Assembly: GCF_021462505.1 (NCBI RefSeq)
Contig: NZ_JAKEDV010000007.1
Location: forward strand, 1-64,000
DNA length: 64,000 nucleotides
Source of the DNA: Thermus brockianus
GTDB lineage: Bacteria; Deinococcota; Deinococci; Deinococcales; Thermaceae
Reading direction: 5' to 3'
Below the pieces are notes generated by a model that was not told where the DNA came from, did not search any database, and worked only from the letters and a program-made list of their open reading frames with translations. This document shows positions 46,333 through 50,525 of this stretch, piece by piece (positions within the stretch are counted from its first letter, which is position 1; each line of letters begins with the position of its first letter). The position numbers were made by a program, and so were the translations under genes.

Positions 46333-47488
46333 ACCTACCTCCATTGCGACGTGGGCTTTCCGCCCACAGGCCGCCCAACTCAAAGAAGCGCGCCAAGAAG
46401 AGGCTCGCCCCGCCCACCGCTGCCGCCAGGTGCCCGTAGGAGGAGGGTTGGACGGAAAGGGCGCGGTGGGTTTCCAAGAAGGCGTGTTCCGCCAGCGCGC
46501 GGCGCATGGGGGCTTCCAGGAAGGGGAATAGCTCCGCTGCCTTCCCCCCCACCACCACCCGGGAGGGGTCGTAGGCCACGGCCAGGTTGGCGAGGAAGCG
46601 CCCCAAAGCCTCTCCCAGGTGGGCTAGGGAACGGAGGGCTAGGGTTTCGCCCCTCTTGGCCTCCGCCAAGAGGGCCTCGAGATCCTCCGCCTCCCCACCC
46701 AAGGCCTGGTAATGCCTCAAGAGGGCCCCAAGGCCGAGCTCGGTTTCCAGGCACCCCTTGCGCCCGCAGGCGCAGGGGGCCTCCCCAGGGCCAAGCCAGT
46801 GGCCCACCTCCCCCGCAGCCCCGTTGGCCCCTCGGAGGAGGCGGCCTTCCGAAACCACCCCTACCCCGAGGCCGGTGCTAAGGACGAGGTAGGCCAGGTT
46901 GGCTTCCCCGTGGAAGAAGACCTCGGAGAGGGCAGAAGCCTTGGCGTCGTTCTCCGCTAGGGCGGGAAGGGGAAAGGAGGCCAGGTAAGGGGTTAGGTCC
47001 AGGTCCCGCCAGCCTAGGTTTGGGGCGTAGAGGAGCCTGTTCCCCACCACCACCCCGGGCAGGGTGAAGCCGAGGCCCAAGGCCCCTTCGGCTCGGGGGA
47101 AGACCTCTTCCCGAAGCCGGCGGAAGCGTTCCTCGGGCCCCGCCTCCTTGGGCTGGGCCCACTCCTTCGCCCAAAGCACCTCGCCCCGCCAGTCCAAAGC
47201 GAGGAGGACCGTGCCCTCCACCCCGATTTCGGCGCCCAGGGCGAAACGCGCCCCCGGGCGGAGGTGCAGGAGGGTGCCCGGGCGGCCCAAGGGGGGGGAG
47301 GTGAACGCCCCTTCTTGCAAAAGCCCTTCCTTGAGGAGCTCGTCCACGAGCCGGCTCACGGCGCTTTTGGCCAAACCCGTGAGCCGGGAAAGGTCAGCCC
47401 GGGTGAGGGGGCCCCGCCGCAGGTGGCCCAGGATGGCGCGGCGGTTGAGCCTGCGGATTTCCTGCGTGTCCCCTTTGCGCACCCTCAC
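46289..47488 (-). CDS. ROK-family (XylR/NagC-like) transcriptional repressor
   Basis: Sugar-responsive repressor. An N-terminal winged helix ([39 protein letters not shown]) is followed by the ROK kinase-like fold: [54 protein letters not shown] and the zinc motif [10 protein letters not shown]. About 399 residues. GTG 47488 is the first start close to the helix-turn-helix; GTG 47482 also fits. An inverted repeat similar to XylR operators lies 6 bases upstream. The gene's tail overlaps the glucose-type binding protein gene, so it probably controls that importer and itself in response to a sugar. Confidence 0.88.
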
Positions 47489-47493
47489 CCCCT

Positions 47494-47514
47494 TTAGTTC
47501 GTTCTCAGGACTAA
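47494..47514. promoter_or_regulatory. candidate ROK/XylR-type operator
   Basis: TTAGTTC (47494-47500) and GGACTAA (47508-47514) form an inverted repeat (6 of 7 positions) with a 7-base spacer, very like XylR operators of the TTAGTTTGT type. It lies directly upstream of the ROK gene start (47488, minus strand), suited to autorepression of the regulator-transporter operon. Confidence 0.6.
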
Positions 47515-47612
47515 GTAAACCACCCTCCCCGTTCTTCGTCAAGCCCTTGTCAGCAGGGGCAAAGCGCCATAGCCTAAGGGCATGGCCCGCTAGGGCCTCA
47601 AAGCCAGGTCCG

Positions 47613-47750
47613 TTGCCCTGGTGCCTGGGCGCGTAGTCCAGGCTTAAAGTGGGGAAGTCCGGTGCAAGTCCGGCGCTGTCCCGCAACGGTAACCGGCCAA
47701 GCTACGGGGCTTTCTTCGCAGGCCGGAAGCCCGAATACCTGCCAGGGCCG
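47613..47750 (+). ncRNA. cobalamin (B12) riboswitch aptamer
   Basis: Contains GGTGCC (47620-47625), GGGGAAGTCCGGTGCAAGTC (47652-47671), CTGTCCCGCAACGGTAA (47676-47692) and the B12 box AGCCCGAATACCTGCC (47728-47743). P1 is GCCCTGG (47615-47621) paired with CCAGGGC (47742-47748). It is upstream of btuFCD, as expected for a B12-repressed importer. A possible promoter is TTGTCA (47547-47552) with TAGCCT (47570-47575), 17 bases apart. Confidence 0.95.
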
Positions 47751-47814
47751 TCCGCCTTTCCCCATGGCGGGCACCTCACGCGGATGGGGGGTTGGGGGCT
47801 TCCTGAGCTTTTCC

Positions 47815-47898
47815 CGCCCCTGCCGCTTTCGGCAGGGGCGTTGCCCTACCTCCCCCGGGCCCGGTGCGCCTGGCCCTAGCGGTCTAAAGGGAGGTGGG
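47815..47898 (+). promoter_or_regulatory. riboswitch expression platform: hairpin and SD-sequestering helix
   Basis: An 11-bp hairpin (47815-47825 with 47830-47840, loop CTTT) is followed by CCTACCTCCC (47845-47854), which pairs over 10 positions (one G-U) with GGGAGGTGGG (47889-47898), the ribosome site of btuF. The hairpin has only a weak T-run, so control of translation seems more likely than termination. Confidence 0.6.
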
Positions 47899-47899
47899 T

Positions 47900-48754
47900 A
47901 TGAGGAAGCTTGTGGCGTTCTTCTCGGTCCTATTGGCCTTGGCCTTCGCCTTTCCCGTCACCCTCACGGACGACCTGGGCCGCCAGGTCACGCTCAAAGC
48001 CCCACCCAAGCGCATCGTTTCCATGTTGCCCTCGGTGACGGAAACGGTGTGCGCCCTCGGGGCTTGCGACCGCCTGGTGGCCACGGACGACTACTCCGAC
48101 TGGCCGGAGAGCGTGAAGCGCCTGCCCAAGGCTGGGGGGCTTTACAACCCAAACCCCGAGCTCATCGTTTCCCTTAAGCCGGACCTGGTCCTGGTTTCCC
48201 GCTACGGGAGGCTTTACGAAACCTTAGAGCGGGCGGGGCTTACCGTGTTCGTGGTGCGGACGGAAACCTACGAGGACATCTTCAAGACCGTGCGCACCCT
48301 GGCCCAGCTCTTGGGGCTTCCCTCCCAGGGGGAGAGGCTGGTGGCCCAGATCCAGCGGGAGGTTTATGGGGAGGAGGTCCGGGCGGCCAAGGCCAAGGCC
48401 AGGCCCCGGGTTTACTACGAGATTGACCCCACCCCCTACACCGTGGGACCCGAGAGCTTCATCGGGGTCCTCATCCAGAAGGCCCGGGGGGTGAACATCG
48501 TCCCCAAGGAGCTTGGGCTTTTCCCCAAGATCGCCCCCGAATTCGTGGTGGAGAAGAACCCCGAGGTCATCGTGGCCACCTACCCGGGTGCCCGGGAAAC
48601 CATCCAGAGCCGGCCCGGCTGGAACCGGGTGAGGGCGGTCCAGACGGGGAGGATCTGCGTCTTTACCGGGGGCGAGGATAGCCTCCTTTCCCGCCCTGGT
48701 CCCCGGGTGGCCCAGGGCCTGAAGCTACTCGTGGACTGCTTCCACGGGCGTTAG
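47900..48754 (+). CDS. btuF: cobalamin ABC transporter substrate-binding protein
   Basis: Periplasmic B12 receptor of the TroA/helical-backbone type. Signal peptide MRKLVAFFSVLLALAFAFP, then VTLTDDLGRQVTLKAPPKRIVSMLPSVTE, a family hallmark, and ALGACDRLVATDDYSDWP, PELIVSLKPDLVLVS, and a C-terminal EVIVATYPGARETI region. 284 residues. ATG 47900 is fixed by GGGAGGT, the site covered by the riboswitch helix. B12 specificity rests on the riboswitch and on linkage with BtuC and BtuD. Confidence 0.93.
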   Translation: MRKLVAFFSVLLALAFAFPVTLTDDLGRQVTLKAPPKRIVSMLPSVTETVCALGACDRLVATDDYSDWPESVKRLPKAGGLYNPNPELIVSLKPDLVLVSRYGRLYETLERAGLTVFVVRTETYEDIFKTVRTLAQLLGLPSQGERLVAQIQREVYGEEVRAAKAKARPRVYYEIDPTPYTVGPESFIGVLIQKARGVNIVPKELGLFPKIAPEFVVEKNPEVIVATYPGARETIQSRPGWNRVRAVQTGRICVFTGGEDSLLSRPGPRVAQGLKLLVDCFHGR

Positions 48755-48757
48755 GCC

Positions 48758-49786
48758 ATGACCCTCTCCTTGCCCCTTGCCCTCCGGCGAAGCCTCGTCT
48801 TCGCCTGGCTCCTCGCCCTTTTGGCCTTGGCCTTGGTCCTGGGGCTCGCCTTGGGGGCGGTGGCGGTGCCCCCAGGGGAGGTGGTGCGGGCCCTTTTGGG
48901 CCTCGAGGCCAACCCCATCGTCACCGAGCTCCGCCTTCCCCGGGTCCTCGGGGGGATGCTGGTGGGGGCGGCCTTGGGGGTGGCGGGGGCTGCCTTCCAG
49001 GGGCTTTTCCGCAACCCTTTGGCCGACCCCTACCTCATGGGGGCCGCCTCGGGGGCGGCCTTTGGCGTGACCCTCTTGGCCGTCCTCCTTGGGGGGCTTT
49101 CCCCCGCCTTCGCCCAGCACGTCGTCTTCCAGGGCCTCCCCCTTTCCGCCACCCTCTTTGGCTTCCTCGGGGCCCTCTTCGCCACCCTCCTCACCCTGGT
49201 CCTCGCCGGCGGGGTGGCGAGGACAGGGGAGTTGGTCCTGGCGGGGGTGGTGGTGGGGAGCGTGCTCACGGGGCTTACCACCTACCTCATGCTCCAGGAC
49301 GCCGACCGGGTGCGGGCAGTCTTCGCCTATACCCTGGGGAACCTGGCCTTCCTGGGGTGGCCCTCGGTGAAGGCGCTGGCCCTTTTCCTCCTCCTTGCCC
49401 TGCCCCCCCTTCTCCTCCTGGGCCGGGTGCTGAATGCCTTGCAACTGGGGGAGGAGGTGGCGCAAAGCCTGGGGCTTCCCCTAAGCACCCTAAAGCTCCT
49501 CCTCCTCGCCGCAGCGAGCCTCCTCACCGCCGCCAGCGTGGCCCAGGCGGGGATCATCGGCTTCGTGGGGCTTGTCACCCCGCACGCCCTGAGGCGCCTT
49601 TTGGGGGAGGACTACCGGGTCCTCCTCCCGGCGAGCGCCCTGGGCGGAGCTGCCCTTCTGGCCCTGGCCGACCTCCTCGCCCGCACCCTCACGCGGCCCG
49701 CCGAGCTACCCGTGGGCGTGGTCACCACCCTTTTAGGAGGGCCCTTCTTCCTCTACCTCCTTTGGAGGCGCCGTGGACGGGCTTGA
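48758..49786 (+). CDS. btuC: cobalamin ABC transporter permease
   Basis: FecCD-family permease of ten helices. Conserved parts: LRLPRVLGGMLVGAALGVAGAAFQGLFRNPLADPYLMG, the GAASGAAFG motif, and GIIGFVGLVTPHALRRLLGEDYR, the coupling region that touches BtuD. 342 residues, normal. Starts 3 bases after btuF and overlaps btuD by 14 bases. Confidence 0.94.
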   Translation: MTLSLPLALRRSLVFAWLLALLALALVLGLALGAVAVPPGEVVRALLGLEANPIVTELRLPRVLGGMLVGAALGVAGAAFQGLFRNPLADPYLMGAASGAAFGVTLLAVLLGGLSPAFAQHVVFQGLPLSATLFGFLGALFATLLTLVLAGGVARTGELVLAGVVVGSVLTGLTTYLMLQDADRVRAVFAYTLGNLAFLGWPSVKALALFLLLALPPLLLLGRVLNALQLGEEVAQSLGLPLSTLKLLLLAAASLLTAASVAQAGIIGFVGLVTPHALRRLLGEDYRVLLPASALGGAALLALADLLARTLTRPAELPVGVVTTLLGGPFFLYLLWRRRGRA

Positions 49787-50525
49787 GGCTAGGGGCATCG
49801 TGGGGCCTTTTGCCCTGAAGGGGGTGGACCTCCTTTTGCGCCCGGGGGAGTGGGTGGCCCTCCTCGGGCCCAACGGCTCCGGCAAGAGCACCCTGCTTAG
49901 GGTAATGGCGGGGCTTCTTAGGCCCAAGCGGGGAGCGGTGTACCTGGAGGGAAAGCCCCTTAGGGCCTACGGGAGCTACGCCCGGGGCCAACGCCTCGCC
50001 TACCTGCCCCAAGGGGGGCCATACCCGGAGGGGCTCTTGGTGGAGGAAGTGGTGCGCCTCGGGAGGCTTCCCCACCTTGGATTATGGGGTAGGGAAGGAG
50101 AGGAGGACCGGGAGGCGGTGGCCTGGGCCCTGGAGGTGGCGGGGGCGGCCCACCTAAAGGGGCGGCTTCTCGGGACCCTTTCCGGGGGCGAGCGGCAGCG
50201 GGTCCTCCTGGCCCGCGCCCTGGCGGCGAGGCCCCGGTACCTCCTCCTGGACGAGCCCACCACCTACCTGGACCTGGCCCACCAGGCCGAGGTGGTGGCC
50301 CTCCTTAGGGGCCTGGCGGAGCGGGGGGTGGGGGTGCTCTCGGTCCTACACGACCCCAACCAGGCGGCCTTGGCCCACCGGGTGGCGGTCTTGCGGGATG
50401 GGCGCCTCCTTGCGGAGGGGCCGCCCGGGGCCGTGTTGGCAGAACCCCTTCTCCGGGGGCTTTACGGGCCCCGGGTGCGGGTGGCCCTTTTGGAGGGAAG
50501 GCCCCATGTCTATCTGGACGGATAG
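49773..50525 (+). CDS. btuD: cobalamin ABC transporter ATPase
   Basis: ATPase of the B12 importer. Walker A LLGPNGSGKSTLLRVMAG, Q-loop LAYLPQGGPYPEGL, signature LSGGERQRVLLARAL, Walker B YLLLDEPTTYLDL and H-loop SVLHDPNQA. 250 residues. It uses a GTG start inside btuC with GGAGG upstream. Its 3' end overlaps a small unknown gene by 20 bases. Confidence 0.94.
   Translation: MDGLEARGIVGPFALKGVDLLLRPGEWVALLGPNGSGKSTLLRVMAGLLRPKRGAVYLEGKPLRAYGSYARGQRLAYLPQGGPYPEGLLVEEVVRLGRLPHLGLWGREGEEDREAVAWALEVAGAAHLKGRLLGTLSGGERQRVLLARALAARPRYLLLDEPTTYLDLAHQAEVVALLRGLAERGVGVLSVLHDPNQAALAHRVAVLRDGRLLAEGPPGAVLAEPLLRGLYGPRVRVALLEGRPHVYLDG

Follow-up and report, generated by a model that had tools for sequence, protein, structure and literature searches.

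Does the cobalamin riboswitch in front of btuF in Thermus brockianus act on translation or on transcription, and which parts of the leader take part in the switch? In the 64,000-nt stretch of DNA analysed here (the window; all features described below lie on its + strand), the first-pass annotation had placed a B12 riboswitch upstream of btuF. This was borne out by a covariance model, as the aptamer (RF00174, 47602-47760, with P1 formed by 47615-47621 and 47742-47748) scores 66.5 bits against a cut-off of 31.5. The riboswitch lies 5' of a three-gene row with the composition of a B12-uptake operon, encoding a periplasmic binding protein (btuF, 47900-48754; Peripla_BP_2, E 9e-31) and, according to domain matches, a FecCD permease (btuC, 48758-49786) and an ABC ATPase (btuD, 49773-50525). 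Riboswitch and operon together suggest B12 as the substrate of BtuFCD.

A probable promoter (47547-47575) can be read from the sequence, consisting of TTGTCA (47547-47552), a spacer of 17 nt and TAGCCT (47570-47575). CTTGTC or CTTGCC together with TAGCCT-like boxes occur at the same place in most Thermus relatives (exceptions are L035, L037 and L033); a pattern scan of 47300-48000 returned no promoter at its threshold. Since the element ends at 47575 and recurs in most of these relatives, the 5' end of the btuF mRNA is expected near 47582. Just after this presumed start, a 5'-terminal hairpin GGCCC-GCTA-GGGCC (47584-47597) can form. Of the leaders described below, 25 of 26 in the Thermus group and 14 of 20 from other Thermaceae have it as CCCGCTAGGG; its outer pair varies between G-C, C-G, G-U and A-U. 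CCCGCTAGGG is kept identical including the loop, which is more than a mere hairpin would need.

The ribosome-binding site of btuF and its complement in the window

The Shine-Dalgarno (SD) site of btuF, GGGAGGTGGG (47889-47898, with the ATG at 47900), is preceded by a conserved complementary strand, CCTACCTCCC (47845-47854), here called the anti-SD strand. The ten-position helix between the two had been annotated at exactly these coordinates, and it indeed comprises ten pairs including one U-G, with energies of -18.9 kcal/mol at 37 °C and -9.9 kcal/mol at 70 °C. In 64 of 2000 dinucleotide shuffles of 47741-47880, a perfect helix at least as good could be formed with the SD, 28 of 908 other 140-nt stretches scored as high, and so did 3 of 48 SD-plus-start sites of the window, the btuF site being among those scanned. 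In the window sequence alone, the match has a p of about 0.03 and is suggestive only, because the DNA is rich in G+C.

An 11-bp hairpin with a poor T-run had likewise been correctly noted before the anti-SD strand. Folding predicts it at 47815-47840, with the arms CGCCCCTGCCG (47815-47825) and CGGCAGGGGCG (47830-47840), as a weak terminator-like structure, and the eight bases that follow it, TTGCCCTA, contain 3 T. A pattern scan of 47300-48000 found no terminator-like sites. Two features of terminator platforms are absent from the window, namely a U-run after the stem, which is present in many relatives, and an antiterminator of similar energy: the hairpin is favoured by 11.4 kcal/mol over folds in which its 3' arm was forbidden to pair. 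Because of this lead, the hairpin of the window looks hard to switch.

As the anti-SD:SD helix is weak evidence in the window alone, leaders of relatives were collected. By tblastn, btuF was detected in 47 of 92 first loci and in 19 of 28 later loci (L093-L120). The comparison comprises 58 leaders: 26 distinct ones of the Thermus group (25 from Thermus and one, L033, from the sister genus g5; L019, whose leader is identical to that of L001, was omitted from the distinct-leader counts), 20 from other Thermaceae (genus codes g2-g4, of which we take g4 to be Meiothermus-like) and 12 of family f4. Seven leaders from more distant families served as outsiders. L027, L048 and L096, without a btuF match by tblastn, are in no set, although L027 and L048 possess a btuF-type platform; some RF00174 matches, e.g. 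G020:C447 and most of those below the cut-off, also lie outside the sets. RNA fold z-scores of single leaders (-0.75 and -1.41) were uninformative.

Pairing of the anti-SD strand and of the kissing loops

Nine to ten continuous anti-SD:SD pairs are kept in 25 of the 26 distinct Thermus-group leaders; in L036, ACCUCC pairs with GGAGGU and pairing resumes past one mismatch. These leaders thus contain the conserved complement to the SD that marks a translational platform, in L036 in partial form. The anti-SD sequence CCCTACCTC is invariant across the 26 leaders, and the SD reads GGGAGGTAGG (U-A) in most of them and GGGAGGTGGG (U-G) in the window, L008 and L028. In all 12 f4 leaders CCACCTCC faces GGAGGTGG with 8 pairs, and U-A is replaced by C-G in a double change. 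The variable pair accordingly counts 11 U-A, 3 U-G, 11 C-G and 1 mismatch in the 26 distinct rows of the pair-count test. Over the 38 Thermus-group and f4 leaders, the matched strands beat all 5000 permutations, a result that is carried by one change between the two clades, as permutations within the clades were as good in 3272/5000 cases for the Thermus group and 5000/5000 for f4. The other 20 Thermaceae leaders have a shorter SD match, for which 10/5000 permutations were as good. Comparison of the leaders thus makes the anti-SD:SD helix credible, and we regard it as demonstrated at the level of sequence comparison. Taken alone, this helix would mark the leader as a translational corrinoid riboswitch of the ordinary kind, for which comparison now provides support in a thermophile.

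Between aptamer and platform, folding places a hairpin between P1 and P13 (GTCCGCC/GGCGGGC, 47750-47772), which has a covarying counterpart in the 20-row alignment of the other Thermaceae. It is followed by P13 with its loop L13 (CCTCA-CGCGGA-TGGGG, 47774-47789), in which GCGG (47780-47783) faces CCGC (47681-47684) of the L5 loop TCCCGCA (47679-47685). The CCGC:GCGG complementarity between TCCCGCA and ACGCGGAT is found in Thermus and f4; in other genera, L5 reads TCGCGCA and goes with UCGCAAGA and the like (GCG:CGC). None of 5000 permutations was as good as the matched L5-L13 strands (57 leaders, as L044 was not caught by the search pattern). P13 itself is CCTCA:TGGGG, elsewhere CCTCT:AGGGG; it is 100% paired in 26 distinct rows, and its closing pair, A-U or U-A, is a double-changed pair. 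The comparison therefore establishes both the L5-L13 complementarity and P13 as conserved sequence features, and an L5 consensus of UCCCG is reported for corrinoid riboswitches (PMC10653944, available in excerpt).

Two other candidates were discarded. The loop of GGTGCAAGTCC has no L13 partner when taken as L5, the place being filled by TCCCGCA, which pairs with L13. The C-rich loop of the P1-P13 hairpin could form a pseudoknot with the downstream G-run, and this was considered as the coupling step, but it is absent in L040. As a separate observation, the B12-box stretch GGAAGCCC (47725-47732) can pair with GGGCTTCC (47796-47803), just past the start of the P14 5' strand described next; read by eye, this match is partly kept in some Thermus relatives and not in others, and it is used in one fold.

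A possible competitor for the anti-SD strand is the 5' strand of a helix termed P14, GGGGGGTTGGGG (47786-47797), which in RNAalifold and constrained folds can pair at 11 of 12 positions with 47844-47855. It shares the four nucleotides 47786-47789 with the 3' side of P13. In relatives this G-rich strand reads GGGGGAGnnnTGGGG and is able to pair with the anti-SD strand; that of the window is without the GGGAG found in them. For the 26 Thermus-group leaders RNAalifold returned P14, enclosing the 11-bp hairpin, and when the SD was forced free, the anti-SD strand paired with the G-rich strand in 26/26 leaders at 37 °C and 25/26 at 65 °C. P14 shows zero double changes, it is 80.1% paired as compared to 78.9% in shuffles, and its covariation is matched by 85 of 500 of them. 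P14 is predicted by folding and, with this failed covariation test, is the least certain part of the model given below. The SD-hidden and SD-free folds of the window are close in energy, the former leading by only 2.5 kcal/mol at 37 °C and 0.8 kcal/mol at 65 °C; across the 26 leaders at 37 °C, the hidden state ranges from 9.2 kcal/mol better to 8.4 kcal/mol worse than the free state. The unconstrained ensembles of the 26 leaders at 37 °C favour SD hiding in 9 cases (>0.5), P14-like pairing in 15 and neither in 2, where P14-like covers every case in which the anti-SD strand pairs with a base between the B12 box and a point 30 nt upstream of that strand.

A helix between the mRNA 5' end and the strand before the SD

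The unusual part of the leader is a long-range helix, P0, which joins the 5' end of the mRNA, upstream of the aptamer, to the strand just before the SD and encloses aptamer and platform. It is common to the leaders of Thermus, which appear to act on translation, and to the T-rich-terminator leaders found among the other Thermaceae (13 of 20). In the window, GCCAGGT (47603-47609) pairs with GCCTGGC (47868-47874), the last pair being U-G, as indicated by permutation, covariation and parsimony. A distal 5' strand of the Thermus group, GCTAGGG (47589-47595), can pair with CCCTAGC (47874-47880) according to RNAalifold at 65 °C. The entire 3' strand, GCCTGGCCCTAGC (47868-47880), identified by comparison and RNAalifold, is located between anti-SD and SD.

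P0 can be drawn in 58/58 btuF leaders of families f1 and f4; as the search always returns a best helix, the test lies in the permutations, and these were as good in 0/2000 (20 leaders), 0/5000 (12 f4 leaders) and 0/5000 cases (all 58). With RIBOSUM scoring and no structure given, RNAalifold placed P0 in the consensus of both the 26-row Thermus-group and the 20-row alignment of the others, together with P14 or an antiterminator as platform. P0 is missing from the default consensus fold of the 20-row alignment, since several rows of that alignment do not have its 3' strand in register. For the permutations and RNAalifold, the register was not fitted by the best helix. In the pair-count, covariation and parsimony tests, the best helix of each row set its register, which biases the results towards pairing; L094, L097, L098, L099 and L102, which have no common register, were left out of them. 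With this qualification, covariation in the 28 distinct rows is 0.483, compared with 0.205 in shuffles and at most 0.137 when slid. In the same rows 83.2% of the positions are paired, 45 cells are changed on both sides as compared to 15.3 in shuffles, and 8 of 10 pairs show changes on both sides; further pair types were no better than in shuffles (95/500). Parsimony on one BtuF tree, used as such with no support test, gives 42 changes in eight P0 pairs, of which about 19 are double and pair-keeping, 10 are one-sided and pair-keeping and 9 lead to a mismatch, the rest starting from mismatches.

The 58 leaders contain 34 distinct best helices. One of these (L004) is not the P0 of its leader, which a separate fold listing gives as GCTTGGCA:TGCCAAGC, and a few rows contain mismatches. 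Versions of P0 include GCCAGGUCC:GGGCCUGGC in Thermus as well as CAACCCGGUC:GACCGGGUUG, CAGCUUGGU:ACCGAGCUG, AAGCUCGAGC:GCUCGAGCUU, CUCGGCC:GGCCGAG and CGCGAGGCCGCC:GGCGGCCUCGCG; in T. composti (L034), GCCAAGGUCCCG:CGGGGCUUUGGC, an insertion is matched by an insertion. At 37 °C, P0 is part of the minimum-energy fold of 19/20 other Thermaceae and 8/12 f4 leaders. Its mean probability in the Thermus group at this temperature exceeds 0.5 in 16/26 leaders and is below 0.2 in the window and nine others. The unconstrained ensemble of the window gives SD hiding 0.58 at 37 °C and 0.72 at 65 °C, and P0 0.17 and 0.04, respectively. Across the 26 ensembles, P0 is mostly high where P14-like pairing is high and low where it is low, with L024 as the exception. 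In nested folds at 37 °C, P0 occurs in 25/26 SD-free and 0/26 SD-hidden structures, the latter figure being forced by the method. Among the seven outsiders, 132/5000 permutations were as good, with P0-like matches in L114 and L120, and P0 is therefore claimed only for families f1 and f4.

For these two families, comparison of the leaders demonstrates a helix that joins the mRNA 5' end to the strand before the SD. It covaries more strongly than the SD helix does. With its 3' strand placed between anti-SD and SD, P0 crosses the anti-SD:SD helix. It would therefore most likely act as a clamp of the open (ON) state, in competition with SD hiding. In a subgroup of the other Thermaceae (L043, L046, L051, L025 and L022), the P0 strand is self-complementary, with GCTCGAGC on both sides, and these leaders are without a clear terminator or a long anti-SD.

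Level of control

Terminator features vary among the leaders. The lead of the 11-bp hairpin over hairpin-less folds extends from 3.6 to 13.8 kcal/mol in the Thermus group and from 2.2 to 14.3 kcal/mol in f4, and 4-7 T among the eight bases after it occur in 25 of the 38 leaders of these two sets (for L034, the hairpin behind the T count is not the conserved one, which was used in the energy comparison). In the f4 leaders L095, L103, L105 and L106, a hairpin with 6 T is only 2.2-2.9 kcal/mol ahead. Termination may thus still occur in the Thermus group and f4, most of all in these four, and f4 leaders may use both platforms. In 13 of the 20 other Thermaceae leaders, a hairpin is followed by at least 6 T in 8, which likely makes them terminator platforms. 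Eight of the 13 have an alternative fold within 1.1 kcal/mol. Among the 20, the five leaders of the GCTCGAGC subgroup have nothing comparable. The RNAalifold consensus of the 20 rows pairs the G-rich strand with the 5' arm and loop of the terminator. It seems that Thermus couples a common upstream half to an SD-hiding platform, and that some of the other Thermaceae couple it to a terminator. L041, L026, L029, L039 and other g4 loci carry CGTCCTC-ACTCCC-GAGGGCG followed by 6-8 T and have a balanced alternative fold, so that this terminator is likely switchable; such terminator-type g4 btuF leaders have aptamer, P13 and P0 in common with Thermus.

For Thermus, control at translation is the best supported reading, in line with the first-pass annotation. 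It is favoured by the retention of the anti-SD (25/26 in full, one double change in f4), by a competing partner that overlaps P13, and by the energetic lead and poor T-run of the hairpin. The description of the genome as rich in leaderless genes also fits, with a mean of 39.4% leaderless in five Deinococcus-Thermus genomes (PMC3160421, as far as available). We consider it probable that a corrinoid riboswitch represses btuFCD translation with P14 as the switch and P0 as the ON clamp. Without B12, P13 would open and P14 would take the anti-SD strand, P0 would close the leader behind P14 and the SD would stay free (ON). With B12, the L5-L13 kiss would lock P13 and block the full P14, and the released anti-SD strand would pair with the SD (OFF). 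Some of the other Thermaceae would use this 5' half to feed a terminator instead.

The main alternative to the clamp is a pseudoknot in which P0 and the anti-SD:SD helix are formed together; it would stabilise the OFF state, and P0 would contribute to SD hiding. With the order A - anti-SD - A' - SD, the strands are arranged as in an H-type pseudoknot, and they are close to each other; the constrained and ensemble folds are compatible with it, as nested folding forbids scoring both helices together. However, terminator-like leaders keep P0 though many of them have a short or different anti-SD match, and P0 is part of the nested minimum-energy fold in nearly all non-Thermus Thermaceae leaders (19/20 at 37 °C), which makes an OFF pseudoknot unlikely. 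That P0 is a DNA inverted repeat (operator) or a stabiliser of the mRNA 5' end with no role in switching appears similarly improbable. Its 5' strand does start near the presumed transcription start, and 5'-terminal hairpins can protect mRNAs. Yet more than 30 distinct paired versions of P0 exist in 58 leaders, and in an operator the sequence, not the pairing, should be conserved. This argument concerns the operator; a stabiliser with no part in switching could still agree with it.

Termination at the 47815-47840 hairpin, with the anti-SD match as a side effect of the strong SD and the high G+C content of the leader, would agree with the hairpin position being kept with base changes in the Thermus group and f4, with the T-rich runs in 25/38 of these leaders, with the balanced T-rich terminators of 8/20 other Thermaceae, and with the p of about 0.03 for the anti-SD in the single sequence. 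We judge it quite unlikely, as the window has 3 T in 8, an empty terminator scan and a hairpin lead of 11.4 kcal/mol, and as the anti-SD CCCTACCTC is invariant in 26 leaders and covaries with that of f4. Control at both levels, with a leaky terminator in addition to SD hiding, is a less remote prospect, though still on the unlikely side, and would be most plausible for f4. A hairpin adjoins the anti-SD strand in all 38 Thermus-group and f4 leaders, the four f4 leaders with 6 T have small leads, and dual platforms are on record (PMC2258182); against it, folding found no structure that would make the hairpin of the window ligand-dependent.

Parts of this arrangement have counterparts in known systems, to the extent that the sources are available. 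In E. coli btuB and env8HyCbl, the L5-L13 kiss stabilises P13 and promotes an RBS-hiding hairpin (PMC10653944), as proposed for the Thermus leader. Unlike in these two, a separate 11-bp hairpin precedes the anti-SD strand in Thermus and P0 closes the leader, a helix for which the excerpt of PMC10653944 mentions no counterpart. In Priestia megaterium metE, mutants define a three-base kissing pair, and P13 competes with an antiterminator (PMC10653944); as predicted for Thermus, the platform offers the 3' side of P13 an alternative partner. The metE platform is a terminator, and the T-rich-terminator Thermaceae leaders are closer to it than Thermus is. Riboswitches in Deinococcus/Thermus and dual terminator/RBS platforms have been reported (PMC2258182), and as in the latter, transcription and translation may both be targets of one leader; in those the RBS lies inside the 3' side of the terminator, whereas the Thermus leader keeps hairpin and anti-SD apart. 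Translational control by long-range mRNA pairing, as proposed for P0, is known from S. aureus icaR, where 5' and 3' UTRs pair, whereas P0 connects the 5' end and the pre-SD strand of one leader around the riboswitch (PMC3868564).

More tentatively, and with somewhat less than even confidence, we propose P0 as a new corrinoid-riboswitch module: a clamp from the 5' end to the pre-SD strand that would loop the leader after the polymerase has passed the platform, commit the mRNA to translation by topological competition with the anti-SD hairpin, and be kept while the platform changes between SD hiding and termination. Within the open-licence PMC titles and beginnings of abstracts that were covered, neither this leader nor a P0-like helix is named; the accessible parts of PMC9600662, PMC3766115 and PMC13273304 do not treat these leaders, and that of PMC13273304 does not mention cobalamin. 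Should P0 prove to be a clamp, a functional element would be lacking from riboswitch constructs that start at P1, and the related genera would show, as a natural experiment, how the output of one switch can change.

A second cobalamin riboswitch of Thermus lies upstream of a transporter gene (L002:1695-1763, L053-L063, L080), whose match to the NicO family was obtained for L002. Its SD, GGAGGC, is contained in a GCCUC...GGAGGC hairpin and precedes a leader ORF of 20-22 codons, not the transporter gene. In 13 of 13 loci with this SD pattern, the stop codon of the leader ORF overlaps the start of the next ORF (ATGA, GTGA or TTGA), which resembles the AUGA coupling of uPPE2-PPE2 under a B12 riboswitch in M. 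tuberculosis as described in the available part of PMC11260477.
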